Below are positions 35,379-63,023 of a stretch of DNA of 64,000 nucleotides, in pieces. Both the position numbers and the translations under genes were made by a program. The DNA comes from Arcuatula senhousia (Eukaryota > Mollusca > Bivalvia > Mytilida > Mytilidae): assembly GCA_963971305.1 (NCBI GenBank), contig OZ020306.1, forward strand, positions 38,337,512-38,401,511, given 5' to 3'. Position 1 is the first letter of the stretch, and every line of letters starts with the position of its first letter. The notes beneath the pieces were generated by a model that was not told the DNA's origin, ran no database searches, and saw nothing but the letters and a program-made list of their open reading frames with translations.

Positions 35379-35412
35379 CAGTCAGGGGAGTTACTTAAAC
35401 AAGTGACTTAAA
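35379..35412. repeat. Left terminal inverted repeat of giant element
   Basis: CAGTCAGGGGAGTTACTTAA continues into ACAAGTGACTTAA. It pairs with the right end with one mismatch in the first 20 bases and contains the first ACTT...AAGT palindrome. Confidence 0.9.
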
Positions 35413-35545
35413 TTTTTCACTTGAAGCAGTGATTTTAATCCAAGAATGAGGAGTTGTAATAGTTATCTCCCTTCAACCAGTTTTGTGAAATCACTTTGTT
35501 AAGTGATAGTAATATGTTTCCTTAAATCACTGTTGTAAGTGTTTT
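35390..35545. promoter_or_regulatory. Left subterminal palindromic sites (ATCACTT/AAGTGAT)
   Basis: Half-sites occur in AAGTGACTT...TTCACTT (about 35401-35422), GCAGTGATTTT, AAATCACTTTGTTAAGTGATAG (about 35489-35510) and AAATCACTGTTGTAAGTG. The same motif recurs at the right end. By analogy with other transposons these may be transposase-binding sites. That role is inference. Confidence 0.55.
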
Positions 35546-36716
35546 TTTTATTTGTTTGAATGGCATTTCATTCCTGAAAAATGTCAATAATTGAAATTGA
35601 ATTATCTCCCTCAACTAAACATAGCAATACCTTGCACTTCTTCCAGATGAGAAATATGTACTAGAGACAACAGATCAGCATGTACTAGAGACAACAGATC
35701 AGCATTGGATTAATGTTTGCAATTAATTTTGGATGCAGAGGATCTAACAACCATTTTCTTTAAAGATACTACTTGATCAAAATTTTGATTCTAGTTTATG
35801 GGACACTTTTCACTTTTTGTAATGGGATTCTGACACTTAAATCATTCCAAGCAGTTTAGTTCAACCTTGCACATAAAATATAATTTTTAAGACATTTTCC
35901 AAATGTTACTTGCTAAAATGTTCAAGATGTATGTTCACACTACTTTTAGTTTAGGTTGTACAAGTTTTGTGATTTCACAGAGATACCATATTTGTGATTT
36001 CACATAGATACCATATATCTAAACAGATTTATCAACACTTTAGCCTTAACAAATTTTAACAAGTCACCTTTAAATAGTCATCTATGCTTTCATTCAAATT
36101 GCTTACAACTAAGAGTAATCCTATGTTATATCCACATATCTTTGATTTTAATAGCATATGACACAGATGAGGGAGATTATGTGTTAAGGTAAATATTGTG
36201 AGTTTTAAAAATAAACATGATAAAATGAAAAAAAAAAAAATGCATAAGATAACAAATGATTGAAATGGACAGTCTTTTTCTATTCATTTTATTCACTGAA
36301 AATTTTTCAGATTTGCATACAATGACATTACAAACTAATACAGGTGTTAAAAGTAAACTTAACTAGAATGGTACAGCCATACAATAAAAAAAAGCTAAAA
36401 TTAACTTCAACTTATTTCCTCTCTGGAATTTTAATACATGTAAGTCAGCTTTGAAATAAAAGTAAGTCTACCCATACATGGGATAGTTCAATAATTTTTT
36501 ACGAAATATTATAAACATGTTAAGATCTATTTAATACAGGTTTGGTCCATATGAATAAACCCCCTAAGACAGGGTTTTTGATACTGGCATTTTTAGCATA
36601 TATCCTATCATAGCAGGATCTTTTGGTTTTACAAATTCAATTAAAACATTACAAGATGTGTAAAAATTACAAATTCAATACTACTATTAGCCTTCAACTT
36701 CAACTTGACAAAACAA

Positions 36717-39700
36717 CTACATGTAGAATAGATTTTTGAAAAGAAGACCAAATGAACGCCCCATTTTTACTGGGGTTGGAGCCTCCAACTTTTTCACAAT
36801 CATTGTATCATCAATAAGGGATGTGTCAGCCTTATCTGGCCAAGTTTTTATTTCCTTTTGCTCTGTGTCTTTCATGAACGTAACATATTTTTCACCATCA
36901 ATTAAGTCCAGAACCTGAAAATATAAAAAAAATGAGTATGTTACACAGGAATATACATGATAATAGTATGAGTATTGTTAAATAAGATGTTCAACTATTT
37001 AATAACACTATTATACTAATGTTACTAATTTTATATTTTGTTTGACCTAATGTATAAATGTAGCATATTATAAGCTTTTTCATGGTTTTGTTTGTAAAAA
37101 AAGTCCTAGTTTTGTTTTAATTGATAAAATAATTTACATTTCATGAACAATGAAAATGACATCAACAACAAATGGTCATATTAGTTGTATAACTGATATA
37201 TATACATGTATGAGACGATATTACCTGTACAAAAACTTATTTGACAAGTTTTTCATACTTGAATCCACTAGTGATATGGTCTCATGTTACCCGACTCTCC
37301 TGTGATGTTTTTCTTTCATTCATTCATATGACCAGCTCAAAAGAGTAGTATTGATTTATGGTCAATAGAGAAAGTCAAATTTTTCTTGCAGTATGAAAAT
37401 GACCAAATAGATTGTACTTTGAAATCTTCACAAGCACAATGAAACCATGAAAAAATCAAGGCAAATCTGGAATGCTGAGGCCGTACAAAAATATATCAAA
37501 TACATATCTCTGGTCTTCAATAAGACTTGAACTAACCTGTGCAACAAAAAATCTTTCCTCATTTTTTCCCTTTTTAAAATTTTCTTTATGGTGAACTTTA
37601 TTAAAACAAAGTCATTGATGTCGATGTTTTGTTTTTCTTCTTCTGGTTCCTTTCTGGACTACAACATGTAATAGACAATAATAATATAATAAGATGTGGA
37701 ATAAGTGTACAGGACACAACCTATCTGTAATTTAAGGAAATATTATAAGATTCAATAACAATCCTAAAAGTGGTACTCAGATGTAGTTATTTCAACTGTA
37801 AACACTGATTTTTCACTAAGCACATTTTAACACCTTTACAAGTGATTTTAAAAATCTATGGCACTGTCAAATACTTTTTTAAATTGTGATTCTTTCCTCA
37901 TTTTTTAAACAAATATCTTACAAAACTAACACCTTTTTCATTACACCTACCTCTGTAGCTTTCAAATTGTCGCTGCTTTTAACCTGTTGTCCAGTGCTAT
38001 TGCTGGCTGGGGGCTGTTGTCCAGTGCTATTGCCATGATTGCTGGCTGGGGACTCTTCTGATGTCTCACTGGGCTACAAAATATAAGCCATACTGTATCA
38101 TGTGTATACAGATGGTTCAATACTTTGACCATTTCTATGCATTATGAAATCTAGTACAATCATGCATTATGAAATTTAGTACAATTATGTCAATGTATTT
38201 AAATTTGTAATGAAGTCACTAGGAACACTACAAAAAGTGATTTCCTTTGTATACAGTGATTTTTCACCAAGCACATTTTAACACCTTTACAAGTGATTTT
38301 TAAAAGCTACGGCACTGTCATATACTTTTTAAATTGTGATTCTTTCCTCATTTTTTAAAACACATATCTTACAAAACTTACGCTTTTTTCATTACACCTA
38401 CCTCTGTAGCTTTCAAATTGTCGCTGCTTTTAACCTGTTGTCCAGTGCTATTGCTGGCTGGGGGCTGTTGTCCAGTGCTATTGCTGGCTGGGGGCTCTTC
38501 TGATGTCTCACTGGGCTACAAAATATAAGCCATACTGTATACAGATGGTTCAATACTTTGACCATTTCTATGCATTATGAAATCTAGTACAATCAATCAT
38601 GCATTATGAAATCTAGTACAATCATGCATTATGAAATGTAGTACAATCATGTTTATCATGTTTATGTATTTAAATTTATAATTTAGTCACTAGGATCACT
38701 GCAAAGAGTGATTTCCACTGTAAACAGTGATTTTTTTTTACTAAGCACATTTTTACACCTTTACAAGTGATTTTAAAAAGCTATGGCACTGTCATATACT
38801 TTTTAAATTGTGATTCTTTCCTAATTTTTAAAACACATATCTTACAAAACTAACATTTTTTTCATTACACCTACCTCGGTAGCTTTCAAATTGTCGCTGC
38901 TTTTAACCTGTTGTCCAGTGCTATTGCTGGCTGAGAGCTGTTGTCCGGTGCTATTGCTGGCTGGGGGCTGTTGTCCAGTGCTATTGTTGGCTGGGGGCTC
39001 TTCTGATGTCTCACTGGGCTACAAAATATAAGCCATACTGTATACAGATGGTTCAATACTTTGACCATTTCTATGCATTATGAAATCTAGTACAATCATG
39101 CATTATGAAATCTAGTACAATCATGCATTATGAAATGTAGTACAATCATGTCAATGTATTCAAATTTGTAATGAAGTCACTAGGAACACTACAAAAAGTG
39201 ATTTCCTTTGTATACAGTGATTTTTCACCAAGCACATTTTAACACCTTTACAAGTGATTTTAAAAAGCTATGGCACTGTCATATACTTTTTAAATTGTGA
39301 TTCTTTCCTCATTTTTAAAACACATATCTTACAAAACTAACATTTTTTTTCATTACACCTACCTCGGTAGCTTTCAAATTGTCACTGCTTTTAACCTTTT
39401 GTCCAGTGCTATTGCTGGCTAAGAGCTGTTGTCCAGTGCTATTGCTGGCTGGGGGCTGTTGTCTGGTGCTATTGCTGGCTGGGGGCTGTTGTCTGGTGCT
39501 ATTGCTGGCTGAGGGCTGTTGTCCAGTGCTACTGCTGGCTGGGGGCTCTTCTTCTGATGTCTCACTGGGCTACAAAATATAAGCCATACTGTATACAGAT
39601 GGTTCAATACTTTGACCATTTCTATGCATTATGAAATCTAGTACAATCATGCATTATGAAATGTAGTTCAACCATGTCAATGTATTTAAATTTGTAATGA

Positions 39701-42700
39701 AGTCACTAGGAACACTACAAAAAGTGATTTCCACTGTATACAGGGATGTTTCACCAAGCACATTTTAAGACCTTTACAGGTGATTTTTAAAAGCTTTGGC
39801 ACTGTCATTTATCTAGGTGAGGAGGGAGGGTTAAAAATGCACATTGAAATTTGGAGGTATAAAAAGATAAATAAAATACATTGAAATACATATAGAAAAT
39901 TGTAGGTGGGGATTTAAAATTTAAATTAAAATCTATTGGTGGTACCACTAAATTTTAAGGGCATTCTGCCCCCAGGGGTCTTTTTTTCTTGAATAGCCCT
40001 TAGATTTAAAGAATTTTTTTCAGAATTTGTCTGAAAATATGTAACAATTATCATTAATACCTACTTCCAAGTCATCATCTTCCAGTTCTGAAAACATCTG
40101 CAAAAAGAATGTTTTCTTGATCATGTTAATGCTAAAAACATTCTTTATAATCTAAAAATTGCTATTTTTTTATTAAAAAACTTACTAACTTTTAATTAAA
40201 AATTTATAATCATTTTCAAATTGTATATCTTTTGGAACGTCAAAGCTATCTAACATAACATAACTTTTATTACATCTTTTGACACCTTACAATAAGAAGT
40301 TCTATTGAATAGTAATATTATTTCTCATAAATTTCAGCAAAAAAGACAAAGCTACAAAATTTTCAGGATATTACCTTGAGAAGCATGCTTAACATTTCAA
40401 TGTACATATTATCATCTTAGGACTGTTCAATAAATAAATAGATGGGAGGTTTGGAAGGCACTTTTATATCTAAAAGATGGGTGATGGGGCTTAAGATACT
40501 GTGACATTGACAATTTTATCAAAATTGTGTGGGTGGTAGAGTTTGGAAAAAAAGTGCCTTCCAACCCTCTCATGCAGTTATTTATGGAATAGCCCATATA
40601 CATAAAATAAATTTTTATCATGTTTATCACAATGAGTCATTTTTACATGTTAATAGAACATCGTGGTAGTAAGATGAGTTGCCTCAGTGAATATCATATA
40701 GCAGGGAATTTTTCAGAGGTTTTAGTTTTAGCTATATTCGAGACTATTTTTCTAACCTGCATAATATAGATTTACAATGATTTACACAGAGATATTATTT
40801 AACCACGGAAATAAATGTTCACCTAAATAACAACTTGATTATTTGGTATGAAATTGTGAAGTTTGCAATTTGCAAAAATACCCACTATACGTCAAATGAT
40901 GTGTATGATGGCACCTGTAATTATCAAAACCAAAGTTCCACAAATACTGGTTTGACAAATTCACTGTTTTACGTCTGATCAAAGGATACAATGTCCAAAT
41001 CAGATGCAACTTTGAATAACCAATTGGTTATCAACAAAGGAGTAGAGCCACGAAGGCCCCAAATCGGCCCAATAATTCAACTTTGATATACTTCCTTGTA
41101 ATTGCTCTCTTGATGTTCATTAGACTTCAAATTTTATAAATTGCAATATCTTTTGGTCTAATTGTTTATCAACAAGTAGGACAGTGAGCTAAAAATCAGT
41201 CTATTTTGTACAAAATTTCGTTTTTTGACATTTTTCATTGATTTTCATGTATAAATCGGTGAAAACGAAAATGGTCACACCCGTCGACCAAAATTATTTT
41301 GTGATAGAAATGTGTACTTTTATATTATAAAATGATTATCAAAAAATTACGATGGTCGACGAATGTGGCCAATACTATTTTTGACAAAATACGACGAGAA
41401 AACAGTGAAAATAGGCGAAAAATTAGGAATTGTATAATTTATGTTATGTTTGAATTGCCAAGGCTAGACCTGTGATGTAGATATTTTGTTAAATCTTACA
41501 TATATGAAAAGTTCACTTATGCCTTAAATGATTTTGGATAAATTTACGAAAAGTTGAAGTAGTTTAAAAATTAGTAAAAATACCGGGCCGATTTGAGGCA
41601 TTCGTGGCTCTACTCCTTTGTTGTAATTTACACTTCCTGGTTTTCTGGTTGGAAGATTAAAAAAACGAAAACAAATTTGATCTAGTAATGTTTTTCCCAA
41701 CTTAAATCATTTGAAACAACTTATTAAACAAATCTGTCAATGTTAACATCATCATGAACATGTTAATTACTGTCAATAAATCTAAATGACTATATCATGC
41801 TGAAGAGAACTTTTTATGTACTGAACAAATGAATCATGCTATGAAAAAGTCGAATCTCATTTACTTCAGTGAAGTTTGACAGTAAAAAAATAAAGCTTGA
41901 ACAAAAACCAAATAGTTCCCCAAAATTTTAATTGTAAATAAATTCGACTGTCTATGTCTACATGTTCAACATGCAACATGTGCAATAAAAGGACTTTAAA
42001 TGTACTTCTTCACATTGGAGGTCATCAGCATTGATGCTTATCACACCTAATACTCCATCATCACCTACTGCATCAACCAATATACTACCCTTTTCTTTTA
42101 TCTCATTTATGACCCGTCTTACTGCATCATCGTCACTGTGTAATTTAATTAATAATCATGATAATGTTAGCTTACATATGAAATGAAAAGATGAATGGCA
42201 AGCAAATGCTTAAAAAATGTGTGTATATTGTCACACTACTGACTGACTGAAAACAAAAAGGGCATTTATTTTTAAAAGGCATGAGCTTCCCCAAGCGTAA
42301 TCAGTGTAGCTTCAGCAATTATTAGAGTTTAGAGTTAAACATAAACATGATAAATCATTCTTAGCTACAATGATTGAAGCAATTGAAAATCTTTTTTTCT
42401 ATCATCTAAGTTTTGAACAAGTGAAAATGCATAATGAGATCTAGGTAGTAAGCTGTCTTATTTTCCATGTTTACAGTCTTTTAAATTAAAATGTAAAGGG
42501 TAAGCAGCCTAATAATTAAATAAGTCTTGTGACAATAAGCACATACATTTTTTCACACACACATAAACAAAAACTGCAAAAGCTTTGATGTACTTTGCTA
42601 AGAAGAAATAACTTAAGATCCGTGTATATAAAGTTGGATTATACTAGTACTCAACATGCTGAAGAAGACATGTAGATATGTGAATGAATGGAAAAATGAT

Positions 42701-45700
42701 ATGAAGTTATGGATTCAGTGTAATAAGTGCTATAAATTGACAATCATTGGTATATGAGATAGTTTCAACAGAATCTTATTAATCTATTTAAATTATTAGT
42801 CCTTACTCTTTCTTTCTGACCAGATGACTTGCCCTTCCCTTTTCCTTTAATAGGCTTCTTTGACATACTTTTATTCGTCCTACAGAAAACAAATTGTGAT
42901 CAATCAATTTTTACCAATATGCATGATATAGGCACATATCAAAATGTATTTCTAACTTTTATCATGTTTTTATGCGTATGTAAATTATTTTCATAATATA
43001 TATTATATTGCAATAGAAAATTCAATACATTGATGTTTGTATGTTTTTGTGTGTTTTCTGTTTGTTCTTGTTTGTATCATTTATGTTGACCGATATTGTC
43101 TTCGTTTTTATTTTTACTTTTGGCTTTGGAATGCCTCACTGGAACACCTTCTAAAAATAGACAAAAATTCTCTGTACCATTGGTTTAAACAAGATCAATC
43201 TTTCTTATTTACACTGACAAAAAAGCTTGATCTTTTAGCTTTAGCAATTATTAGAGTTTAGAGTTAAGCATTAACATGATAAATCATTCTTAGCTACAAT
43301 GATTGAAGCAATTGAAAATCTTTTTTTCTTATCATCTAATTTTTGAACAAGTGAAAATGCATAATGAGATCTAGGTAGTAAGCTGTCTTATTTTCCATGT
43401 TTACAGTCTTTTAAATTAAAATGTAAAGGGTAAGCAGCCTAATAATAAAATAAGTCTTGTGACAATAAACACATACATTTTTTTCACACACACATAAACA
43501 AAAACTGCAAAAGCTTTGACAAAAACTGCAAAAGCTTTGATGTACTTTGCTAAGAAGAAATAACTTAAGATCCGTGTATATAAAGTTGGATTATACTAGT
43601 ACTCAACATGCTGAAGAAGACATGTAGATATGTGAATGAATGGAAAAATGAAAATGATATGAAGTTATGGATTCAGTGTAATAAGTGCTATAAATTAACA
43701 ATCATTGGTATATGAGATAGTTTCAACAGAATCTTATTAATCTATTTAAATTATTAGTCCTTACTCTTTCTTTCTGACCAGATGACTTGCCCTTCCCTTT
43801 TCCTTTAATAGGCTTCTTTGACATACTTTTATTCGTCCTACAGAAAACAAATTGTGATCAATCAATTTTTACCAATATGCATGATATAGGCACATATCAA
43901 AATGTATTTCTAACTTTTATCATGTTTTTATGCGTATGTAAATTATTTTCATAATATATATTATATTGCAATAGAAAATTCAATACATTGATGTTTGTAT
44001 GTTTTTGTGTGTTTTCTGTTTGTTCTTGTTTGTATCATTTATGTTGACCGATATTGTCTTCGTTTTTTTTTTTACTTTTGGCTTTGGAATGCCTCACTGG
44101 AACATCTTTCTAAAAAAAGACAAAAATTCTCTGTACCATTGGTTTAAACAAGATCAATCTTTCTTATTTACACTGACGAAAAAGCTTGATCTTTTTAGCC
44201 TCGATTCAAAAAAGATTGGTATTTGAATGTAGTGTGAAAGGGATCAATGACACATTTAATCTTCTATAAACTATTATCTGGTATCATAATGAATAAAATT
44301 TGAAAATCTTATTTTAGAAACTATGTTTATAACCTACTTTTCTCTCACTGGTTGTTTCCCCTTTCCAGTTCTAGAAAACAGCTGTCTTTTCCTGAAGTAG
44401 AATGCAAAATTTGATGAATATCAAGTAAACTAAATGGATATCAAACAGAACCACACTATATCAAATCAACCCTGATCATGTTGATATTAATCCTTAATAA
44501 CATTAATATTATTACAAACTACACGTAGAACAGCAAAAAGTCATCGATTAATTAATGGTTCAAATTAAATTCTGTGTTTAAACATCCTGTATGCTCTAGC
44601 ACAACTTGGAACAAAGTGATAATTTTGTCACTGTTATAACATGTACAAATGAAATCCTAACAGCAAGGTACGTGCAAGGTTTATTATTTTTAGTCATGTT
44701 AGTTAGATGGTTAACTATCTCCATAACTGACAAAATTTTATATTTTCTCTGAACATACAGATATCAAAATGTTTATGTTTTGTGAATACAATGTATATTG
44801 TAAGTTATACTGAAAAAATCAACTATACTAGTAATTGCTTTATTTACTCATGAATCAATACATACCTTATTACTTGATTTGTGTCAGCATAATGTATTTG
44901 CATTCTTGCCAATTTGTCTTTTTGCTGTTGGGCCAATGTGGTCCCTCTGCCTGGATTGAAGTTGTAGTCATACTTGTTAGGTGTCAGTTTTTGAACCTTT
45001 TGACATGTGCCTTTCTGGGGAAATCCCTGTTCAGTTTTCTGCATCTTAAGTCTTTTTATACTACTGGGTTCTGCCAACCTCTCACCCTTTTCAAACTTTT
45101 CCATTAGGCTCCCAGATCCCAGATATTTTACCTTTTGGGTACGTTTGTTTCTTATCAAGAATAAGCCATCAACAGGCTCTAGCTCATGGTCAAGTAACTT
45201 GCTTAAAAATTTTTTCAGTGATTTTATGATCCTTGATTTTCTCATTCTCTCAGTCTTTAATTTTCTGTCATGAGACTGGTTTTGCCTTTTTATCCCTGGT
45301 CTTAATTTTTTATGAGTTTCGGAGTACACAATTTTATATCATGTATGTCACAAGTTTCACTCTCTTCTGAACTGTGACTATTGTTCACCTCTTCGACATC
45401 ATGTTCATATTCTTCACTTTTTTCAATATCATCTGCATTTTGTAGTGCCACTACTTGACCAAGATACTTTACATCATTCATATTTAGGTCTGTCAACAGG
45501 TTATCATCTAAATTAACAGAAAATAATTATCCATAACTAAAATGCTTTTTTTCAATATTTTGATGTTTATACATTGTACAATTTAAACCAAATGGGGTGT
45601 TTTCCATACTCAATATTAAAATTGAAGTTAAAATCCAAGAAAAATACTTATCAAATAATTAATTTAGATAGGAATTTAAAACTTGAACAACAGAAATAAT

Positions 45701-46697: not shown

Positions 46698-46728
<31 letters not shown>

Positions 46729-47907: not shown

Positions 47908-48489
47908 TTAAAGACCGGACTTGGGGTATAAATAGAAGCCAATGAGAAAAATCATTGTTCTTTCAAAAATTTTGGCAGCTTTCAAGTTCAAGCAATATTT
48001 TTTCAAATTACTTATTTGATAAATTTTTGTTTGTACACAAATTTAGCTTGGGAATAGAATGGGATATAAGGGACCCTTTCACCAAGTTGTATTTTATATT
48101 CTACTAAAATAAAAGATATATTGGTCTCTAAAAATCTGAGGTGAGCAGATTTTCAAAATTTGAATTTCCCAGACTGACAGATGGAGGTGGAGCTTACATC
48201 AGCTGTTTCTGTTATTGTTTACATTGAACACGTGCACATGCTGATAAATCAAAACTGGCCTACCTTATGTCTTTATAGATAAGGATTGCAATTATATGTC
48301 CATCATTATAATGTCCATGGTGAGTAAGTAAGTGTCCAGTACTATTCAATAAATCTGATCTTTGTGTGAATGTAAATAGTTTATGTATAAAAATCATATG
48401 GTAATTGCCTAACTAACTACATTGCACCACTTGTACAAAACTGTTTAGTGTACTTCAAAAGCAGAGGAAAATATTTTGTTTTATTCTAT

Positions 48490-49026
48490 TTAATCCCACT
48501 TGTGACCCATGTAAGGTTTTTCTGAAGGATTAGGAAACCACTGCCTAACTAAGCCAAGAACACATTTAGGAATTATGTCCCTTCGATGGTAGACATATTT
48601 TTTTCGTGGTCTGTCTCTTTTCAAAGCATCCTTTTTTCGAGTCAAATATCTTGGATCACTCCATACACCTCTGTGGAAAAGATTAGTCCAGAATCTTTTA
48701 AATTTGTCCTTCCTTAAAAAAGAATTCCCTTCACTTGGTTCATGATTTGCCTCTTCCCACCAGAGCTGTCTGTTCTGTTCATTTGTTATACAAGGGCGAC
48801 ATAAACAATGAGGACACTCAGGTAATTCCTGGTCTTGCTGGATGGAATATTCCTCATATCTGCAGTCACTGTTTTCCTCTATAGATTCATTGTTTTTGTC
48901 ATGATGTACTTCATGGAAATCCCAGTCATTATGAGCAAAAAAATGATAAATAGCATCCCTTTGTTCTTGTGTAACCTCAAGTGATAGAACTGAAGTAAAA
49001 TTTTCATTTTCACTATTTCCCTCCAT
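48490..49026 (-). CDS. Kolobok accessory protein, unknown function
   Basis: Intact 178-residue frame. The N-terminal third is acidic and ends in EEYSIQQDQELPECP. A compact Cys cluster follows (CPHCLCRPCIT), then NRQLWWEEANHEP, LRKDKFKRFWTNLFHRGVW and RYLTRKKDALKRD. The end is basic (PNPSEKPYMGHKWD). The Cys cluster suggests metal binding. It lies inside the Kolobok ends on the strand opposite the transposase, so it is probably the element's second protein. Kolobok elements are known to carry extra frames, but I cannot name this family. Confidence 0.7.
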   Translation of the reverse strand: MEGNSENENFTSVLSLEVTQEQRDAIYHFFAHNDWDFHEVHHDKNNESIEENSDCRYEEYSIQQDQELPECPHCLCRPCITNEQNRQLWWEEANHEPSEGNSFLRKDKFKRFWTNLFHRGVWSDPRYLTRKKDALKRDRPRKKYVYHRRDIIPKCVLGLVRQWFPNPSEKPYMGHKWD

Positions 49027-49668
49027 TTTATGAGTCGACTGTTTTCTGACAAGGTCAGGAATAGAATTTTTTTCTCCAAAATATTCTAGGGCAAAGGGTT
49101 CAGCAGGGAAAAGATTTAATATTTATATATTTATATATTTATTAGAACTGTCTTTGGATTAACAATGAAAGGAACAATTCATTTTCACATCATAGCAGCA
49201 TTAATTGTTATTTTTATAAGCAGAAACATTAGATAAAACAAAGTTCTGAAAATTTATCACCCAGTGAAGTCCTCTTGTGTATTTCCAGAATGATAAAATC
49301 TGGCATTTTGTTTATGTTTATGTTAGATTTGGCGGCAATGGACCACATAATTGCATTCTGTTGATGTAGTTTGTGGGGGTGAAAGACAGAATTAAATCAT
49401 GAAATTTTTTCTTTAATTTTCAGATATTTTATGATTTTTTTTCAAAGCAATTTTGTATTCCAAATAAAAAATACTTATACATATTATATGTAATTTTATG
49501 GATTTAAACAATCTTAGACTTTTTTAATGTGAATATTGGTTTACCCATTGAGTGAACCATGATAGACTAGTCCAGTGCAAGTTGCACCAAAGTTCATTCA
49601 CATTCATAATTCCAATTGTGTTTATTTACTAGAACCACGTGTAGCTAAAGAAATTAAGTATAAAAAAA

Positions 49669-51300
49669 ATGTCAGAAAGTGAAAAGAAACAAAGAAAAAG
49701 AACTCCAAGTTTTCGAATAGAATTGTCAGGAAATGATGAGACCAAACATGAAATATTTAGTAAATTTTCGGATATTAGGCAACATTTATCACAGCAACAT
49801 AACAAGCCCATGGGAAACTTACAAGTTATACAAGCTCTTATTCACAAATGGAACTTAGACAATGCAAATGAAACCATTACTGAAAGTATTGATGATGAAG
49901 TGTGTCCCTCCTCCTTTGTGCGGTCAAAAAAGACAGAGACCAAGCAAAAGATATTTTTGACAGCAGAGGAATCTTTTAAAAGAATTATTGCAATAGTAGA
50001 GTGGCATTCAAGACATTGCAAAGCAAAACTTCGAACCACCAAAATATTACAGAAGGGACATGTATGCAAAACCTCTTTGAAATGTGATAGCAAAGAAAGA
50101 CCACATATCTTTTCTTGGTCATCCTCCCCGTATCTACCTAACAAGGAATATCTTGTGAACAGTAGAGTCAACCATGGGATAATCTGCAGTGGAATTCTTC
50201 CTGCAGATTATAAGAGATTTGTAAAAGGTGCAGGAATTGGAGTTATTGCGGATGAAAGTCGCTCATCATTTTTCAATGTGCATGCTGAACATATTCAAGC
50301 AGAATATGAAGACTCAATTGAAATAGCCCTACTGCAGGAAATCGCATCATATGATGAACTTACAAGTGAAATCGACATTATGTCTGATGCAAGACATGGT
50401 TGGAGGAAAAATGCAAAGGATTCTAGTGTTGTATGTATAGGGGATAAAACTCACAAAGTCCTCAGGTGTGAACATATAACTAAAGGGATGGATCCTGTAT
50501 CACAAAGACATGAAAGACTTGGGACAGAAAGAATTTATGACTATTTAAACGAAAAAGATGTAAAAGTAAACGTGCATTGTCATGACAGGAATTTGTCAAT
50601 TAACAAATTTGTTCGTGAACAAACCGAGGCCCAAAATCAGAATGATACGTGGCATTGTGTGAAAGCTGTAAAAACTGCTATGAAAAATGTTTCATCTGGA
50701 TCAAAATCTTCGGAAGGAAAGACCTGGTCATTTCAATTATCAGATAAAGTTGAACCTGTGTCTACACACATTTATTGGGCCATTCAAAATTGTGACAAAG
50801 ATGAAAGAAAACTTCAAAAACTACTATTAAATATTGTAGATCATTATAAGAATATTCACCATGACTGTCATGAAAATTCAAGGTGTAAAAAAGATCCAAA
50901 ATATGAACCTTCACGAATTGTGATAACCTCTCCAGTAGCTGAAAAACTCCTAGTTAATGTGATACTGAACTCCACTATTTATAAACATGCTAAGGATTAT
51001 ATTTTAGGGCGAGACACTTTCTACGTTGAGAGTTTCAACAATGTGACCAACATATATCAAAACAAGCGTATAGCATTTGGTGACAAACAGTACAATGCAA
51101 GGGCAAATCTAAGTGTTCTCCATTGGAATGAGAATGTTGATAGGGGATACACCTCCATCTCAACACAACAGAGCCATAGGGCCCCAAGGAGCAGAAAAGG
51201 AAAAAAGAACTATAAAAAGGCTACATATACTTTCAGAGACAATATTTGGTCTAGATATGTGAAAAATGTATTCAGGAAGAAAAGACAAAACCAGAAATAG
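49669..51300 (+). CDS. Kolobok-like DDE transposase
   Basis: Intact 543-residue frame starting MSESEKKQRKRTP, with a basic N-terminus. Candidate catalytic residues: Asp240 in IMSDARHGWRKN, Asp306 in CHDRNLSINKF and Glu454 in FYVESFNNV. The segment NDTWHCVKAVKTAMKN after the second Asp matches the conserved (D)(V/T)WH..K pattern of this transposase group, and Cys pairs at about 400-420 (HHDCHENSRCKK) may bind metal. It would cut and rejoin the element ends at TTAA. No lesion is seen, so it may still be active. Superfamily assignment rests on motif pattern and TTAA duplication together. Confidence 0.8.
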   Translation: MSESEKKQRKRTPSFRIELSGNDETKHEIFSKFSDIRQHLSQQHNKPMGNLQVIQALIHKWNLDNANETITESIDDEVCPSSFVRSKKTETKQKIFLTAEESFKRIIAIVEWHSRHCKAKLRTTKILQKGHVCKTSLKCDSKERPHIFSWSSSPYLPNKEYLVNSRVNHGIICSGILPADYKRFVKGAGIGVIADESRSSFFNVHAEHIQAEYEDSIEIALLQEIASYDELTSEIDIMSDARHGWRKNAKDSSVVCIGDKTHKVLRCEHITKGMDPVSQRHERLGTERIYDYLNEKDVKVNVHCHDRNLSINKFVREQTEAQNQNDTWHCVKAVKTAMKNVSSGSKSSEGKTWSFQLSDKVEPVSTHIYWAIQNCDKDERKLQKLLLNIVDHYKNIHHDCHENSRCKKDPKYEPSRIVITSPVAEKLLVNVILNSTIYKHAKDYILGRDTFYVESFNNVTNIYQNKRIAFGDKQYNARANLSVLHWNENVDRGYTSISTQQSHRAPRSRKGKKNYKKATYTFRDNIWSRYVKNVFRKKRQNQK

Positions 51301-51830
51301 GATCATTTAGTAGTTCTATTTAAATATTGTAATAAAAACTAATGAACAATGAAACTCATAAACTCATGTGCATTTTAATAATTATTTTGAAATCAACTGT
51401 TTGACTTAATTGATTGGATATTGTCAGTATAATTAGTGATGAAATTCCAATACATCTACTTAAAGATAAGGGTAAGATTTTTCACTTTATCAGCATGTGC
51501 ATGCTATGTAAACAGATCAATGCTGTGTATTTATTTTAAGAATGATGATATCAGTAAGCTCCACCCCATTTCCTTATAGGTTTAATTGGTTACCACTTGG
51601 TAAATTTTGTAGGTCAAGTCCGGCCTTTAACAATGCAAGCATTACCACTGACTGACTAAAGACACCCACTATTTTCCAAACAGTCTGTTCTATTATAAGA
51701 TTGGGGCTCAACGAGACCCTTATCACAACTCCTTTACCATGCAAAATAATACCTTGTCTACATATAATGTGTTCACATCCTCTAATTCATCAAACAAATC
51801 CAAGGGCTCGTGATTCTGAACAATCTCCTT

Positions 51831-54800
51831 TTACTCTGTGTATAGTGATATGTAGTCAGCTTTCTTTCCTCCCTTTACTTTCCTATAGCAAGTCAAAAAG
51901 TAGTCTTGAATTTCTTTCTCAGGGATTATATCTAACAAATTTGTAATTTGCTTTTTATGCCCCGCAAACTTTGTTGGGGGGCATATAGTTTTTCGGTCTG
52001 TTCGTCCGTCCTTCCGTCCATCCGTCCGTCCGTCACACTTTAGTTTTCCGCACTTTTTTTCGACATCCTTGCATATATTCAAAAGATTTTTGGTATGTGA
52101 GTCTACCATGATGAGTTACAGGTCAAGTTCGAGTTTCGTTCCGGTCCACTGATTTTGACCTAAATTACGGCCCTTGAACTTAGCAAATTTTGTAAAAATA
52201 AGTTTTCCGCACTTTTTTTCCACATCCTTGCATATATTCAAAAGATTTTTGGTATGTGGGTCTACCATGATGAGTTACAGGTCAAGTTCGAGTTTCGTTC
52301 CGGTCCACTGATTTTGACCTAAATTACGGCCCTTGAACTTAGCAAATTTTGTAAAAAAAAAAAGTTTTCCGCACTTTTTTTTCACATCCTTGCATATATT
52401 CAAAAGATTTTTGGTATGTGAGTCTACCATGATGAGTTACAGGTCAAGTTCGAGTTTCGTTCTGGTCCACTGATTGTGACCCAAATTAGGGCCCTTGGAC
52501 TTAGCAAATTTGGTAAAAATAACAGTTTTATTTTATTTGCCAGCGGGGCATCAGTGTCATCTTGACACATTTCCTTGTCTATCTCTGTTTTAGTTTTGCT
52601 GTTTATATCCTCAAATTTTTCTCTTTCTTCTGGGGTAATAGGAACAGCAGTTGTCATGTTAGGTAAATCTTCTACCTCTTCTTCAAGGAAAAAATTTCTC
52701 AAGTAATATATTCGCTTCATTGAAACTCTTTCAGCAAGATTGACAAGGTCAAAATCTAGGATTTTTCCAGTTATAGATGTATGGTCAGTACTCTTATCTA
52801 AGTAGTTATGTTCGCGGATGATAGATCGAAATGAATTGATTGCAGCTTCTAAATCTAAGTCTTTTAATGCTGTGTCACCAGGTGTCAGCCCAAGTATTGC
52901 ATACAAGTTGGTCTTCATTTGTTGCAGTACAGAATTGTTTCTACATATCTTTTGCCAAACAAAATCTGTCGGTACTCCTTTACTTATCCACTGTTTTAAT
53001 TGTCTGTTTTTTTCTTCTAATATAAAATCAAGGTCTTCACCAGTGGCTTTGTTTCCTGATGTAGTAATTGATGCATATGCGTCAACCTGGTTTCTTACCT
53101 CTATAGGCATCAGTAAATATTGTAAATGGTCATAAAGTTCAATTTGATGATATTTCGGATGAGCTCTTGCGTGAAATAATTCCTTTGTTATATATTTAGC
53201 ACTATTTATCAGCATGGCATTATTTCTTCTTATTCCAACACGAAAATTGATTATTCCTTGAGAAAAACGACAGACTTGGTCCATCATATACTTCATATTT
53301 GGCCTTTCTATGTAATATTCATGTTGGAACTTTAAAAATCCCTTGGCATTGTAATCCTGACCTAACAGTAAACAATGACGGACATATGGCAAGACTAATT
53401 CACGCATAGCTCCGAAATGGAATACTAGCAAAAGTTGCCAGCTTTTGTGATGATCTTTACAATTTTTGGCATAAAGTTTGGCAGCATCGGATGTAAAGCT
53501 CATTTCCTCACATAATTTCTCCATGAATGGTGTCCAATTCATTTCAAAAAATGATTTTACCAAGTTCATTTCATAGTGTCCACCACCTATTCTTAAATAG
53601 AACCAATCAAACTCGTGACAAAATTTGTATTCTTTGCTGTCTGGATGGTCCTTATCCACATGGTTTTCAAATGCTTTTTTTGATAGAAAAGTTTTTCCAC
53701 ATTTGTCTAGGGAATCTGTTACATATGTGCATACCACTCCTTCCTCTTTAAGTTTTTTACATATTAAATAAGGGACCCCATCACAACATATATGAGTCCA
53801 ATGTCGAGACTTTCCTCCATATTGACAAATATCATTTTCAGAGCCAATCTGTCGTAGAACATCAGCCACCGTCTCAAAACTGTTGGGGTTGCAAAATACT
53901 GGGTTGGATAGGATGACTTCCATTTTACCTTGATGATTTGACACAACATGATCATATCTCTCATGATCTTCAACATTGTTTGTGGTTGTAACCAGCACCT
54001 CTCCCTCTTCTTTCATTAAGAACTCTATTTTGGAAAATGATTCTTCAAGAGGGGGGTGAATATTTTGACCATCTGTTTGCTTTTCTTCAGACCTACTTCT
54101 TTTTAGCCCATCCCTTTCCTTACAGCCAACACAAATTAATTTTCTTTTTGAGTTTAACATACCACAATTCTCACACTTTCTGTATGTCTCTTTCAATTGT
54201 TTTGAGTATATACCATTATCAATGTGGTCATCATAGTTTTCAGCAACTTGATTTTGTTCTTCTGCAACTATTTTCATGGCAGTTTCCAGGAAAAGGCACA
54301 GTTGTTCATAATGTATATTTTCATATGAATGATACAATTCTGACTGTTGGTCAATGACTGATTCCACAACGGTTTTCAATACTGCAGGATCAATCATATT
54401 CTCGGCTACATCTTCCCTATTTGTTCTCATAATGAGGGCAGGTTTAAGTTCTTTCTTGCATTGCAAGTCTCCCTCTACCTTAAGATATCCCTTATTCGTA
54501 ATTATCGAAACTTTTGCTTTATTTTTGGGCTTTATTCCACTTTTGTTTCCAATTACCTGTTCATTGTCAAAGACATTGAATAAATCACCACTCGGAAGAA
54601 CTGGTTCCTTAGTGCTTTGTTCTATCAACCATGTGACAACTGTTTTATACCCCCCTGATGGTCTAGTCTTCCCTATTATATCAACGGCCTGTTTACTCCC
54701 TGTCAGGGAGTAAACACATAAATTTTGTAAAAAAGCAAATGGTGATACTAGTTTTGGGTCACACAATTTATATGTTTGTTCTACAGTTGAGGCTATAGCA

Positions 54801-55604
54801 ATAGTTTTGTCGGTAACCGTTGTTTCATTGTTTTGTTTTAATCCTGCGATACCAGAAAAAAAAATTTTTAACAACAATGTTTCTGTCCTTTAGCCAGTCA
54901 GTTGTATCAAAAGTTGACACTGCATCCAAATCTTTATACATTAATGCAAATGAATTTGCATCCTGTTTTATTAACCCACTTTCTTGTAACCCAATAAAGT
55001 ATGCAAATAAACTTAAATCTGCTGAATCAAACTCTTGTAGAAAGCATTTTATTAGGTCTGATTTCTCAGTGCTGGTCCTTGTTTTTAAAAGGTAACAAAA
55101 TTGGTTCTTCAAAGAATATATGCAAGATAAACAGTCTGACTGTATACTTGAATGTTGACATAAAATAAAGCTTGTGGCCTCATTCGAAACACCTGAGGCA
55201 GTGGAATGAACATCCCCATGATCCCATTGTTTATGTATTTTCTCAGGAATTGGAAATTTTCTCTTTTTAGGTCTTCCAAGTGAACGTTTCGTATCAGTTT
55301 CAGCTTTACATATCTTGCAATCTTCTGAATGTTTCTCAAAAAATACAGGCACCAGGTCAGTGGTAAACGTGCATTTTCCTGTTTTATTTCTTGAATTTCT
55401 AACTCTATACAGAATATTTGAACACTTCATACAAACAAAATTAGGATGGATATGTGGCTGATCAAACTTGAGTTCTAATCCATACATTTCACCCAACTCC
55501 TCATAAAAATTGTTCTTGTCAATTTTTTTCCTCGATGTAAACTCTTGCCCACATAAGCGGCAAAGTTTACCTAAAGTAACGCAATGATTTTCAAACTTTT
55601 CCAT
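51831..55604 (-). CDS. RAG1-N-like zinc region fused to large transposase-like domain (with lesions)
   Basis: Start at 55604 (MEKFENHC). Residues 15-99 carry CRLCG, HIHPNFVCMKC and H-X3-CKIC, followed by a basic GRPKKRK patch at 110-116. This order and spacing resemble the N-terminal zinc-binding region of RAG1 (a ZAD-type zinc domain is the alternative). The frame then breaks: at 54856-54864 a run of nine T (minus strand) shifts it, and eight would keep it open into the frame 54877-52424. That part has FNVFDNEQVIG (Asp codon near 54568), a CENCGMLN/CVGC knuckle, HICCDGVPYLI (Asp, 53780), a CX..H finger-like stretch and DWFYLRIGGGHYEMN (Glu, 53570), a spacing like RNase H-fold transposase-like proteins of the DUF6589 type. 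The C-terminus is split by 51957-52551 and resumes KKQITNLLDIIPEKE to the stop. About 1,090 residues in all. Probable transposase of the giant element. Confidence 0.7.
51957..52551. mobile_element. Tandem-repeat element inserted in the RAG1-N-like gene
   Basis: The ends ATGCCCCGC and GCGGGGCAT are inverted. Inside are a (GTCC)n-like microsatellite (52005-52033) and three ~170-bp units (GTTTTCCGCACTTTTTT, GGTCAAGTTCGAGTTTCGTT, GACCTAAATTACGGCCCTTG). Open frames on both sides belong to the same gene, which shows it is an insertion, although no direct duplication was seen. Confidence 0.75.
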
Positions 55605-57348
55605 AGCTTACAGTTGTATCTAAAGTTTTGATTTGATATTCAAGTTATCTTGTCACAGACCAACATGTTCCTTGACATCCACCATTGACTGCACGCAATT
55701 TACATAATGTTATATGGCTCCCAAGATCATGTGGATTATCTGATAAAATAATGAAACAATTTTGGTCCTCAATTAAATGTACTGATGTAAGTAATATAGA
55801 AAAATATACATGACAAAATCCGGAAGGCGCGGCCTGTTTTTTTTTTTATTCATACCCTGATGTATATAAATATGTGTATTACATGTATTAAGTTTCATGA
55901 TGATACCATCTAAAAATACCCCCCCCCCCCCCAAGTAAATCAAATTGTCTGTGCCTAAGTCTTTTATATGGACAGTTAAGATTGACCCATTAACATGTTT
56001 AAGACCGGTAGTTTTGTTGTGACCTTTATTGCAGGAGTGCTTTGGGATTTTTTTTTTATTCAGTTTCATTGTTGATAAAACCATTGATACTTTTAAATAT
56101 GTCACTTAAAAAAGTGATCTGGAAGCAACGTTTTCAAAATTGTTAAATATTATGTCACTAGTTCTGGAAACTCAAAATGTTATATCACTTTATACAGTGA
56201 TATGGAAGTTCTAGGCCTAGTCAGAATCAAATTTTAAATCACTTGAAAAAGTGATCTGGAAACGTTATACTGTCAGAATTAAATTCTGAACATGTTAAAC
56301 TTATCAAATTTAAAAATCACTTGTAAAAGTGATCTGGAAACTATTGTCATAGAGTCAAAATTTTAAACACTTCATTCAGGGCATTACTTCCATTTCTTTC
56401 CTTCCTACAAAGTCAGGGCCATTATGATCTTCCTGTGTGTCTGCCTTGTTAATGCACGGAACATTTCGATTTTAGCTTGAGCAGGAAAATTGTTTCTGTG
56501 AGCCAGATTTTTTTTTTTCACATGCATCGATGCAAGAAATTTTGTTGCCATTCATTATTCACTTGTCAAGATTGAAGCCAGATTATTTTTTCAACCTTTG
56601 TGGTGGCCAGATTTTTTTCTACAAAAACTGGGGCCAGGTTATGTTTTCTAAAAAATACTCTCCCCCCCTAGTAAATCAAATTGTCTGTGCCTAAGTCTTT
56701 TATATGGACAGTTAAGATTGACCCATTAACATGTTTAAGACCAGTAGTTTTGTTGTGACCTTTATGGCAGGAGTGCTTTTGTTTTTTTTTTATTCAGTTT
56801 CATTGTTGATATAACCGTTGATACTTTTAAATATGTCACTTAAAAAAGTGATCTGGAAGCAACGTTTTCAAAATTGTTAAATATTATATCACTAGTTCTG
56901 GAAACTCAAAATGTTATATCACTTTATACAGTGATATGGAAGTTCTATGCTTAGTCAGAATCAAATTTTAAATCACTTGAAAAAGTGATCTGGAAACATT
57001 ATACTGTCAGAATTAAATTCTGAACATGTTAAACTTATCAAATTTAAAAATCACTTGTAAAAGTGATCTGGAAACTATTGTCATAGAGTCAAAATTTTAA
57101 ACACTTCATTCAGGGCATTACTTCCATTTCTTTCCTTCCTACCAAGTCAGGGCCATTATGATCTTCCTGTGTGTCTGCCTTGTTAATGCACGGAACATTT
57201 CCATTTTAGCTTGAGCAGGAAAATTGTTTCTGTGAGACAGATTTTTTTTTCACATGCATTGATGCAAGAAATTTTGTTTCCATTTGTTTTTCATTTGTCA
57301 AGATTGAATTTTTTCAACGTATGTGGTGGCCAGATTTATTTCTACAAT
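55605..57348. repeat. Two ~0.74-kb direct repeats with palindromic sites, upstream of RAG1-N-like gene
   Basis: Blocks at about 55920-56640 and 56660-57348 are nearly identical (AAATCAAATTGTCTGTGCCT, AACATGTTTAAGACC, CAGGGCCATTATGATCTTCC). Each holds four ATCACTT-N-AAGTGAT palindromes (for example AATCACTTGTAAAAGTGATC). A third copy is split: 58990-59291 and 61379-61520. They lie just upstream of the transposase-like gene and could take part in its regulation (inference). Confidence 0.75.
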
Positions 57349-59291: not shown

Positions 59292-61378
59292 CAAGGCTCA
59301 CCAAACCAGGCGAAGTGGGCGAAAAAGTCGCCCTGAAAAGTTAAATTTCGCCTTTGTAATGTCACAGGGAGAAGTTAAAGTCGCCTTCTAAAATCGCGGT
59401 AATCGCCGACATTTCCCGTTTCTTTAAAAGATTAAACAAAGCTGCCTGTTTATTTGATCATTTTACCTAACCCAGACCTAATTAACAACCTGTCACTCAT
59501 TCATTCATTCATTCATTCATATCTTTATTTCCTCTTTTACAGAGATAATATAAATGCATATTATATAACAATATAAATCAAACGAACATATTTACAGAGA
59601 TAGGGATTACATAAAAATAATCTATAATTGCAATAATTAGAAACTAATATTAATATCAAGCAATTGAAATATTCTCCAAAAAATCAGACATGGAGGGGTC
59701 TTAAGCGGGACAACGTGAAACATCAAATATTAAATAATAGTAGATCTCTCAGCACAACACCCATTGGTATACGGGTTAGCGAATTAGTCGGTTGTACTCT
59801 GCCAGAGTTTTGACGACATGAAGGTGACAAATAGTCGTAAAGTTCGTACGGTCATCAATATCAGTCAACGTTTGACGACCTAACAACACCTCATATAAAT
59901 TCTCTTCATCATATGAATTAAGCTCCACAAAAAGTTCTACATCAAAATTTTCCATTATGATATCCCACCAAATATTTTGTAAGGATAAAGTTCCAGTACA
60001 GTTACATAAGGCATGAACGTAAATATCCGAAAAGTCTCTGTTGCATAGCACACATAATCCAGGAGTTGAATTTGGGCGTTCGGTCAATAACTTCAAAACA
60101 AAGTAATAGTTTTTAATTTCGTTACACGATATGTTCTGTCGTAGAATTGGGTTGATTTTAACCGAACTATGAATGTTCTTAAAACGTGAAAAGTCAAAGT
60201 CACTGTTCATTCTTGTTCTCCATTCAGATTCTTGAGTAGTATCAATTGCGTCATTTACTATTCCTTTCCATACAGATTTGTTAGGAAATGTTCCATTCGA
60301 CATGTATTCAATTAAAAAATCGTGAAGTTCATATTTGAGTAGAATGTTGAAAATGTCCGGTATGAAGCCATAGTGAGCGTGTTGGTTAGAGTCCATCATA
60401 AATGAAAATAGTCTGGTTGTGAAGATCCTTTTCACTAAAAATTTATCATCAATATTGCAGAGCTTTTGGAGTAGAAAAAGTTTATGTTTGTCAATATATG
60501 AAGTGATCGGGTGTAACAACCTGTCACGATGTCCTGTCACTGTTAATTACCAAATTCAAAAGTTTATTATCTTGTTAATAAACCAATTAGCGCCCAAGCC
60601 CGACGGCAATAGTCGGCTTGTACACCAAACTTGTTAGATGGATCCAACTCCCAGTCATTAATTGGCTTCCAGGATTGATAAAAACTTAATATTAATGTGA
60701 TTTGTTGACAAATAATTGACCAATTAACTGTAATTAATCCTTATTATTCATTTTGAAAGTTAAATTTCTGATGTTAAAGAAAAAATATTGAACAGAGTTA
60801 TGCCCCTTTAAAATTAATAAATTTCTAAACTCTTAATCTTTCTATACATACTTTTGTGTTCTTTTACCATAAGTTTAGAGAATGATATAATCAAACAAAG
60901 ATAAACACTAACAAAGAATTTGAGCATAATTAAGTATTGCAAATTATTTTTTTCATTTAGAAAATCACCTTTTTGATTATTTTCAGAACCTCAGCTGGGT
61001 ATATATACCTTTTCCCAATTTTGAAATTCTCTCTTAAAAATAATGGAGAAATAAAGATAAAATTAGTAATAAATCTGTAATAATAAGACTTAAAAATAAA
61101 TACAAGTAGCATCAGCAATCTCTATAGTTGTTATGCCATACGGAATAACCTTACCATAGAATACCACTTTTAATTTACTTATAATAAAACTTATAGAGAT
61201 TTCATATGTAGGAAATATAAAGCACTTTACAAAGTAGTATTGTAAATTATTAAGTTTTTTTGTTTCAACGGTAGTGTCGCGCGCCTCTCACTTCTCCCTT
61301 ATTTGTTGTCACTTCTCCCTACTTGGCTCAGAGGGAGAAGTCACTTCTCCCTGTCATCCTGAAGTGTGGTGACCCCTG
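59292..61378. mobile_element. 2.1-kb hAT-like element with ATATCA duplication
   Basis: It starts CAAGGCTCACCA and ends GGTGACCCCTG (inverse CAGGGGTCACCA), inserted in an ATATCACTT palindrome of the third block copy and flanked by ATATCA on both sides. The CARGG start suggests hAT, but hAT duplications are usually 8 bp, so the class is tentative. No transposase is present. A truncated LINE is nested inside. Confidence 0.6.
59498..60532 (-). mobile_element. 5'-truncated LINE with (TGAA)n tail and 9-bp duplication
   Basis: On the minus strand an open frame (60540 to 59776) encodes the C-terminal part of a LINE polyprotein, including a Cys/His segment CVLCNRDFSDIYVHALCNC. A short 3' region then ends in a (TGAA)n tail at 59498-59520. 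CCTGTCACT flanks it at 59489-59497 and 60533-60541. The frame is intact within the fragment, so insertion is fairly recent. Confidence 0.8.
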
Positions 61379-61520
61379 ATATCACTTAATACAGTGATAT
61401 GAAAGTTCTGGGCTTAGTCAGAATCAAATTTTAAATCACTTGAAAAAGTGATATGGAAACAATACTGTCAGAATCAAAATCTAAATCACTTCAAAAAGTG
61501 ATTTGGTACTAAAACGTCAA

Positions 61521-62688
61521 AATAGTGTTCATCACTCCTTGTACTAGGGGTGCCACACACACAAAAATGCCATATCAGAATCTAAAACTTTCATGTCTGC
61601 CCATGGTTTACAGTCGATTTAAATATAGGTATCCACTCTACACTCGATATAAACATTAACGAAAACAATGGCTATCCATATTAAAATACCCCCCTTATGT
61701 AGGAAAAATTTTGGTTGCTTATACCGGCCCCCCTTAGGCCAGTCAGTGGGCCCTCCCCTTAGCAAAACATCTGGATCCGCCACTGAGACCCCTTTTGTTG
61801 ATTAACTTTGTGATATTTTGGAAAATGTTGTCAAAATTATGGCTATGGTCTTCCTTTAAAAAAATCCTTGATTTGTCCCTACTTTAGATATTTACAAAAA
61901 AAATTATTAATATTTACATTTTATTTTACTTTTACTTCTACCACTAAGTGACCATTGTCATCTTGTCGACTATACTGTTGCTGTGCGCAACAAAATTTAA
62001 GAAAGAGACAAATAAAAACATTTTAATAATGTAAAGTTATATTTGTTTCCAATATATATAGTAGAGTATCTACACATATTTACATGTATGTCGTTAAAAT
62101 AGATGTCAATATATTGGCATTATGTACATTTCGAAGAATTCTTGACATACGAAAAAAATAGTTGTCAATATATTGACATTATGTACATTTCGAAGAATTC
62201 TTGACATACGAAAAAAATAGTTGTCAATATATTGACCTTATGTACATTTCGAAGAATTCTTGACATACGAAAAAAATAATAATAAAACCTTAACGATTTT
62301 TATTATGTGACAAGTTTTTCTTGTTTCATACTGGTGCATCATTTGAAGTTGCAGCAAGACGACATGAGTTACCTCTCTTCTTTATTCGACTGTAGAGGGA
62401 AAATCACATCCCTTAGTGATATTTTGTTTTTTAAATTCAATTATCACTTTGTTAAGTGATTAAATTTCCATCAATGTGTTGACTTTCAAGGCCCGCGAAG
62501 ACAGGGTTTTACACACCGAAGACACATTTTTTCTTGCTGAATTCGGAAGTTTAAATGTTCAAGTTGCTTATAAAAATTAGCTCATGCTTGGGAAAAATCA
62601 ATTTTACAGCTAAAGATTGGGTTAATAATGGGGAAAATTATATCGATACCTGAAAAAAAATAAAAAATATGATCCATGTGATACTCAC
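61521..62688. other. Right subterminal region of giant element
   Basis: No gene except the short exon next to it. It contains a 59-bp unit repeated three times (62099-62275, GTCAATATATTG, CATTTCGAAGAATTCTTGAC) and further palindromic sites (ATTATCACTTTGTTAAGTGATT near 62440). Confidence 0.5.
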
Positions 62689-62707
62689 CGGCTTCGTTGT
62701 CTGCCAT
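62689..62707 (-). CDS. Putative first exon of the accessory gene (MADNEAG)
   Basis: The ATG at 62705-62707 has a good context (GAAAATGGC). It is followed by six codons and a strong donor (GCCG/GTGAGT). The one-base overhang fits the phase of the exon at 46193-46264 exactly, giving MADNEAGPAGNNIDSEMNEQ, acidic throughout. If correct, the intron is 16.4 kb and contains the whole RAG1-N-like gene on the same strand, plus the Kolobok. The start is 163 bp from the element's right end, so the promoter must overlap the terminal repeat. Confidence 0.55.
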
Positions 62708-62824
62708 TTTCTTCACGCATGCGGATCGATTCAAATCATCACGTGATTTCACGATAGTCTGATTAGCGGTAAATTCAAAATCTCGTTTTTTTAGCAGAAC
62801 CGTAAAAAACACCAAATATCGCGC

Positions 62825-62870
62825 AAATAAGTGATTTAAAAATCACTTTTTTAAGTACCTCCCCTGACTG
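62825..62870. repeat. Right terminal inverted repeat of giant element
   Basis: AAATAAGTGATTTAAAAATC, then ACTTTTTTAAGTACCTCCCCTGACTG, ending at 62870. It contains an AAGTGATTT/AAATCACTT palindrome immediately inside the terminus. Confidence 0.9.
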
Positions 62871-63023
62871 TTTATCAAAAAATTTGTTGAATATAAAAAT
62901 CCATCTAATTTCTTCAAAGCTGGATCAGATCATAATAGTATTTTTGCTCAACAAAAATTTTACAGTAATGTATTAGTATTGTTACTAGATTTTACAGATT
63001 AGATATATACTGAGATTATGTGA

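Follow-up and report, generated by a model that had tools for sequence, protein, structure and literature searches.

The origin of the N-terminal half of RAG1, the enzyme that cuts antibody genes in humans, is a standing question. The transposon N-RAG-TP of Aplysia californica is said to have been reported by Panchin and Moroz in 2008. In the extracts of the literature to which all comparisons with published systems below refer, N-RAG-TP is a molluscan transposon with a protein that resembles the N-terminal part of RAG1 (PMC8355894, PMC2996935, PMC13337447); its whole sequence is described as RAG1 N-terminal-like, and two reviews, one from 2021 and one from 2026, derive the N-terminal half of RAG1 from this one Aplysia transposon. 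RAGL elements, for their part, combine a RAG1 core with RAG2L (PMC7204232). The window analysed here, a stretch of 64,000 bp of the bivalve Arcuatula senhousia (assembly GCA_963971305.1, contig OZ020306.1, positions 38,337,512 to 38,401,511 of the forward strand), contains at window positions 35379-62870 a segment of 27,492 bp which very probably represents a giant DNA transposon of the cut-and-paste type with two genes, the transposase of which unites a RAG1-type N-terminal domain with a DUF6589-related core. By description, N-RAG-TP is the closest known system, as a molluscan transposon with a RAG1 N-terminal-like protein, but the elements reported here differ from its description in the DUF6589-related core, the length of 23-29 kb, the second gene, the CAGTC ends and the 5-bp duplication. 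The two may belong to the same group; the named protein relatives of the transposase come from Mytilus species and Ruditapes, and Aplysia proteins are absent among the named protein matches to the transposase family.

The segment is one DNA transposon with terminal inverted repeats and a real unit. Its termini begin CAGTCAGGGG, inverted at either end, and the left repeat CAGTCAGGGGAGTTACTTAAACAAGTGACTT (31 nt, 35379-35409, plus strand) and the right repeat (31 nt, 62840-62870, minus strand) are 90% complementary to each other, while the letters TTTAT read at both borders (35374-35378 and 62871-62875) represent the target-site duplication. A preliminary description of the locus had proposed these borders, the inverted ends and the 5-bp duplication, all of which proved exact, and had stated that deletion of the segment restores an unrelated reading frame, which is also the case: excision in silico of the element together with one TTTAT gives an open frame that spans the junction, and the 66-amino-acid (aa) junction peptide is found whole elsewhere in the genome, at three places with 100% and at one with 98% identity. 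The window locus itself gives just two partial matches, with stops, in this search, for which 55 matches were listed, mostly more distant relatives. The four uninterrupted loci are paralogous empty sites. The target is a retroelement on the plus strand, which we take to be DIRS-like, extending from 29103 (left border approximate) to 35373 and resuming at 62876, with reverse transcriptase and RNase H matches and with uninterrupted paralogues.

It had been stated at the outset that a single unit would be refuted if no further copy shared both of its ends; the search of the own genome returned a second full-length copy, which leaves the reading as a unit standing. The queries were the 122 bases of the left end (four matches) and the 171 bases of the right end (204 candidates, of which 40 were scored, with two full-length matches). 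The second copy, C12:24162300-24190402, comprises 28,103 bp, has ends 98-99% identical to those of the window copy, possesses its own duplication ATATA and has flanks that differ from the window locus. As the two copies differ at just 14 of 3,133 aligned positions across the transposase region, movement has been recent. Two partial left ends with identical flanks on contig C1517, probably a local duplication, were left out of the copy count.

A near-identical end pattern has 401 genome matches (206 forward, 195 reverse), with none for the reversed control. As the two ends of the window element each deviate by one base from the exact pattern, these matches belong to related short elements, which we read as short non-autonomous relatives, apparently hundreds of them with nearly the same end. 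Among the pattern places, of which the first ones were listed, 28 are on contig C3, and 22 of these pair up as 11 plus/minus pairs with their outer ends 755-765 bp apart. An exact 5-bp duplication (CTTAT, ATAAT, TATAC) is seen in three of six short elements having both ends in the sequence. The window itself carries such a short non-autonomous element of 663 bp with ends of the CAGTCAGGGG type and the duplication TATAC at 15288-15950; it sits within an open reading frame (ORF) region, 14860-16424, that is by eye similar to a long interspersed nuclear element. With the second full-length copy, the paralogous empty sites and the short relatives in support, the initial view of the segment as one large cellular-type DNA transposon is well founded.

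The same plan recurs in two further families, with a transposase 37-40% identical to that of the window family. Family 2 is represented by the element C5:40422787-40447648 (24,862 bp, perfect 35-bp ends CAGTCCAGGCAAATACTG..., duplication AATAA) and by C12:2452133-2477925 (25,793 bp, CAGTCCAGG ends), where AATAA is duplicated at a different site; the first 29 bases of the family 2 end, with up to two mismatches allowed, have four genome matches (control 0), which are both ends of these two elements. By eye, the right flank of the C12 copy of family 2 (L048) suggests that the element landed beside subterminal sequence of the CAGTCAGGGG type (tacttaaacaagtgatttaaaaatcac). Family 3 comprises C5:65896668-65919372 (22,705 bp, CAGTCCAAGATTTTATTG... 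ends, duplication ATCCT), the ends of which score 39 compared to a best of 27 when the right-hand part underwent 50 mononucleotide shuffles, as well as C6:7014519-7043550 (29,032 bp, duplication TGTAA) and C7:51974855-51999073 (24,219 bp, duplication TGGAA), both with an exact CAGTCCAAG end pair. As the family 3 end pattern alone is unspecific (12 sites with up to two mismatches, six of them outside the three elements; reversed control 8), the copies of this family rest on their duplications and on the genes inside. A transposase match and a match to the second gene are located inside all five elements of families 2 and 3. Cumulatively, CAGTC...GACTG ends and an exact 5-bp duplication are found in 7/7 full-length copies of the three families (22.7-29.0 kb); a fourth family (C3:61452190, C6:49225435) stands outside these counts. 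Ends of the CAGTCAGGGG type on the 49%- and 39%-identical relatives were not found in the stretches first examined; families 2 and 3 have CAGTCC ends.

The putative transposase gene, gene 1, is encoded on the minus strand in pieces. Its 5' ORF of 260 aa (54828-55607) matches PF12560, the N-terminal, importin-binding domain of RAG1, with an E-value of 9.5e-8 that passes the gathering cut-off, and aligns with single-ORF relatives; the main ORF of 821 aa (52427-54889) is homologous to the relatives until about residue 774 (about 52568), where a nested tandem-repeat insertion of about 0.6 kb (51959-52568, borders approximate) interrupts the 3' end of the gene. The severed last piece is probably the ORF at 51834-51953 (minus strand, borders approximate), which by eye resembles the C-terminus of the relatives. 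The first 260 codons are out of frame with the rest because a T-run near 54840 differs in length by one base. An intron between the two ORFs was considered and ruled out, as the aligned relatives are intronless single ORFs covering both window parts and the C12:24162300 copy differs by one base in the T-run.

Genome matches to the 821-aa ORF number at least 61, from 55 scored of 2,287 candidates, and at 15 loci among the listed matches an uninterrupted frame of 1007-1143 aa is present. The 821-aa ORF itself had no match above cut-off in the Pfam scan, and an NCBIfam scan gave nothing above its cut-offs. On the other hand, the PF12560 cut-off is passed by two of five scanned relatives, and the domain is detected at E<=0.1 in 15 of 28 aligned members, which include the two window ORFs as separate rows, with a best value of 2.3e-12; a search of the own genome returned 15 PF12560 matches. 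Compared with PDB, the family profile aligns with residues 101-258 of a 1040-residue RAG1 chain, presumably from mouse, at E 2.2e-11. The remark in the preliminary description that RAG/Transib-type elements also make a 5-bp duplication was apt, as the transposase gene has a RAG1-type N-terminal domain that had escaped the first reading. Judged from sequence, the gene 1 family consists of proteins of about 1000-1140 aa in which the RAG1 N-terminal domain (PF12560) is fused to a DUF6589-related region. The likeness to DUF6589 proteins (PF20231), a family for which Pfam gives no function, is located in the C-terminal region of several members; in the literature search DUF6589 was named nowhere and PF20231 appeared in an unrelated context only.

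Besides zinc-ribbon-like and C2H2-like Cys/His residues, the 821-aa ORF contains three conserved acidic residues. In alignment A2 of 29 sequences, D108 (FDNEQ) is retained in 24 of the 25 rows with a letter at this position, and D370 (CCDG) and E625 (LEEKN) are retained in 28 of 28 each; all three are invariant across the 19 sequences of alignment A5, including the three divergent relatives L044, L045 and L046 of 23-27% identity. In these three, PF12560 is detected at E<=0.1 in none, with the N-termini of L045 and L046 cut at the sequence edge, and DUF6589 is found below cut-off in two; L044 has a different, Cys-rich N-terminus. Zinc-type residues (C239, C242, C253, C256; C387, C397, H410, H415) surround the D/D/E triad. 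We infer that the gene 1 product is a DDE transposase with D108, D370 and E625 as the probable metal-binding triad.

Gene 2 follows on the same strand. Its conserved exon A (44847-45338, minus strand) has a homologue in the exon A of family 2, with 31% identity (E 1.4e-10), and a relative of this ORF lies directly downstream of the transposase in another family. The 208-aa counterpart of the other family occurs at 21 genome places, in 11 of which a transposase match lies 0.6-7.2 kb upstream of it, with both on one strand in 11/11; likewise, gene 2 is downstream on the same strand in 5/5 copies of families 2 and 3, where a second conserved exon (YYAVAFDNTWYPG..FKWP) comes next. In the window, a possible last exon (36720-36977, minus strand, YVTFMK...WPDKAD) matches exon C of family 2 weakly (E 0.075), in an order that agrees with families 2 and 3, and repeat families and ORFs point to possible repeated coding exons with SNSTGQQPPA-type repeats (37921-39569, minus strand), the structure of which is tentative. 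The region 37800-39850 consists of four tandem units of about 450-490 bp, possibly repeated exons of gene 2; every unit contains a coding-like repeat of 30 bp as well as a repeat of 25 bp. The preliminary description had assumed introns: none are seen in the relatives of the transposase gene, and it is for gene 2 only that introns and an exon structure can be proposed. The gene 2 pieces scanned match no Pfam family above cut-off and gave no RAG2 match; as a guess, the product could be a chromatin- or protein-binding helper.

The sites described earlier as repeated at both ends are borne out by the motif ATCACTT/AAGTGAT, which occurs 34 times inside the element compared to 7.3 expected under a dinucleotide model and five times in the remaining 36.5 kb of the window. 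Most of the sites fall within 61-63 kb, 56-57 kb and 38-40 kb, with a palindrome cluster (ATCACTT..AAGTGAT) at 56112-57067, delimited by repeat families and motif count, and a second cluster toward the right end at 61381-62848. The C12:24162300 copy has 42 such sites, and in family 2 a similar palindrome, ATTACTG..CAGTAAT, adjoins the ends. The clustered palindromes are likely transposase binding sites. We propose that gene 1 encodes a transposase of about 1100 aa composed of a RAG1-type zinc-binding N-terminus, a zinc ribbon and a DUF6589-related core, the zinc modules of which would bind both the CAGTC ends and the subterminal palindrome clusters. Once the transposase had cut the element out, it would insert it into target DNA at positions staggered by 5 bp, and the stagger would account for the 5-bp duplications, while the gene 2 product would be a conserved accessory protein. 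DDE catalysis, cut-and-paste transposition, site binding and the role of gene 2 are thereby predicted steps.

A number of observations weigh against this model. PF12560 is absent at E<=1 in three of the five scanned relatives, and the DUF6589 cut-off is passed by one of the five, the 1071-aa ORF L022 of family 3 (E=4.1e-7), with another one below it; among the 28 aligned members DUF6589 reaches E<=0.1 in just 10, and the window ORF has no DUF6589 match in the Pfam scan. The argument for the D/D/E triad is its conservation. Ten of the 21 gene 2 places have no transposase match within 30 kb, and the C12:24162300 copy gave no gene 2 match, though its DNA aligns there at 98%. In three of the six short elements for which both ends are available, no exact duplication of 5 bp is seen. 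Finally, the transposase gene is broken in both full-length copies of the window family, each in its own way, as two private stops interrupt the matched transposase part of the C12:24162300 copy, which also has an insertion of about 6 kb near its left end. Consequently, the copies of the window family can now be moved only by transposase made elsewhere; frames of more than 1000 aa are still open in other families.

RAGL, ProtoRAG and Transib elements share the 5-bp duplication observed here in 7/7 copies, and RAGL elements in addition the RAG1 N-terminal domain. They differ in that a RAG1 core was not detected here, and in that the second gene is on the same strand (11/11), not convergent, and without a RAG2 match. 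The CAGTC ends of the three families resemble neither the CAC... ends similar to recombination signal sequences nor the protostome RAGL consensus CACTWMCAAACKTYKBB (PMC7204232). Chapaev and Chapaev3 elements have, in some groups, a RAG1-like N-terminal (Chapa) domain (PMC4411706), but their reported hallmarks are CAC..GTG ends and a 3-4-bp duplication (PMC4079192), in contrast to CAGTC and 5 bp here. The Chapaev transposase family PF06918 (DUF1280; PMC3985635) is unmatched at E<=1 in five relatives, and a search of the own genome found none, though the control genomes gave none either. As the preliminary description had it, Polinton genes are absent: a Pfam scan of six large ORFs, three of them in nested insertions, saw neither the PolB nor the retroviral-type integrase of Polinton/Maverick elements. 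Giant elements with a RAG1 N-terminal/DUF6589 fusion are not described in the titles and abstract starts searched; subscription journals and Repbase Reports, mostly outside this coverage, may hold them.

A possible, if doubtful, alternative to a core of separate origin is that the core falls within the CMCT clade (EnSpm, Mirage, Chapaev, Transib, RAG1) as a member that has diverged very far, whereby the N-terminal domain and the core would share one RAG1 history. The spacing of 255 between D370 and E625 is near the 254 between D708 and E962 of RAG1, and a C(2-4)C and H(3-4)H pair is located between D370 and E625 in most members shown, with C(4)C in several. The arrangement expected of the CMCT clade is C(2)C and H(3-4)H between the second D and the E; the C and H pairs seen here are closely spaced, as in an ordinary C2H2 finger. 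The 5'-CA..TG-3' ends and the 5-bp duplication would suit the clade, for which 2-5-bp duplications are reported (PMC12730594), as would the Chapa domain of Chapaev elements (PMC4411706). Similarity to the RAG1 core was sought by Pfam, PDB profile and hhalign, and none was found. The PDB profile searches matched RAG1 at its N-terminus only, and the core family PF12940 was not seen in the transposase proteins scanned by Pfam. The hhalign comparison of A2 with one 387-aa RAG1 core, as a single sequence a weak test, gave a probability of 0.2% and left the core unaligned. In the own genome, PF12940 had a single match of 42 residues, above cut-off.

Assignment to the Academ type is improbable. Academ transposases are long, and the superfamily is well represented in bivalves, for which a curated library counts 100 elements of the Academ type (PMC10294476). 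Yet duplications of 3-4 bp are reported for AcademX and of 9-10 bp for AcademH (PMC10045372), as opposed to 5 bp in 7/7 copies here, and neither an XPG nuclease nor a helicase was seen in the 10 scanned ORFs of the element (of 240 ORFs of at least 40 aa).

It is similarly hard to credit that the RAG1-like N-terminus is a generic zinc domain of the zf-AD type with no special link to RAG1. The 260-aa ORF does match zf-AD weakly (E=0.002, below cut-off), but PF12560 performs far better both in this ORF (9.5e-8) and in the family (best 2.3e-12), the family profile finds RAG1 at 2.2e-11 compared to 0.91 for chain 7po9_A, presumably a zf-AD protein, and the domain is N-terminal in RAG1 and in the transposase alike. 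A composite pile of repeats ending in inverted repeats by chance, to which the three nested insertions and several tandem arrays within the element might lend some colour, can practically be dismissed in view of the exact empty site, of a second copy that shares the ends but has a separate duplication, and of the five other elements that follow this plan.

Compared with the C12:24162300 copy, the window copy of the transposon has three extra insertions of about 3.7, 2.1 and 0.6 kb, the last being the tandem-repeat insertion in gene 1. The 3.7-kb insertion (47912-51626), absent from the C12 copy, is flanked by a TTAA duplication and contains two divergent ORFs, a Mutator-like (PF20700) transposase and an ORF of 210 aa, which presumably resembles P2X7 intracellular-domain-like proteins of invertebrates; judged by its duplication and PF20700, it is Kolobok-like. 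The Mutator-like ORF (49645-51297) was considered as the own transposase of the giant element and ruled out, as it is located inside this TTAA-flanked insertion missing from the C12 copy. The 2.1-kb insertion (59293-61378), likewise absent from the C12 copy, has a 7-bp duplication ATATCAC and an ORF of 256 aa.

With respect to the biology of these elements, the complete copies in one genome, with ends, duplications, empty sites, a partner gene and open-frame relatives, make end binding, excision and integration testable, and they demonstrate that cellular DNA transposons as long as 23-29 kb are able to transpose as one unit. For DUF6589, to which Pfam assigns no function, activity as a transposase becomes likely. 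The database proteins P0014 from Mytilus coruscus and P0017 from Mytilus, which bear the name RAG1 or RAG1 importin-binding domain-containing, match the transposon family; as P0014 does so, the RAG1 labels of database proteins need care. We see an even chance that the elements form a separate superfamily of giant two-gene transposons, with a DUF6589-related, non-Transib core and the same 5-bp duplication, which would be the lineage, or a sister of the lineage, that gave RAG1 its N-terminal half. If this is true, the 'two transposons' origin of RAG1 would become testable with intact relatives.

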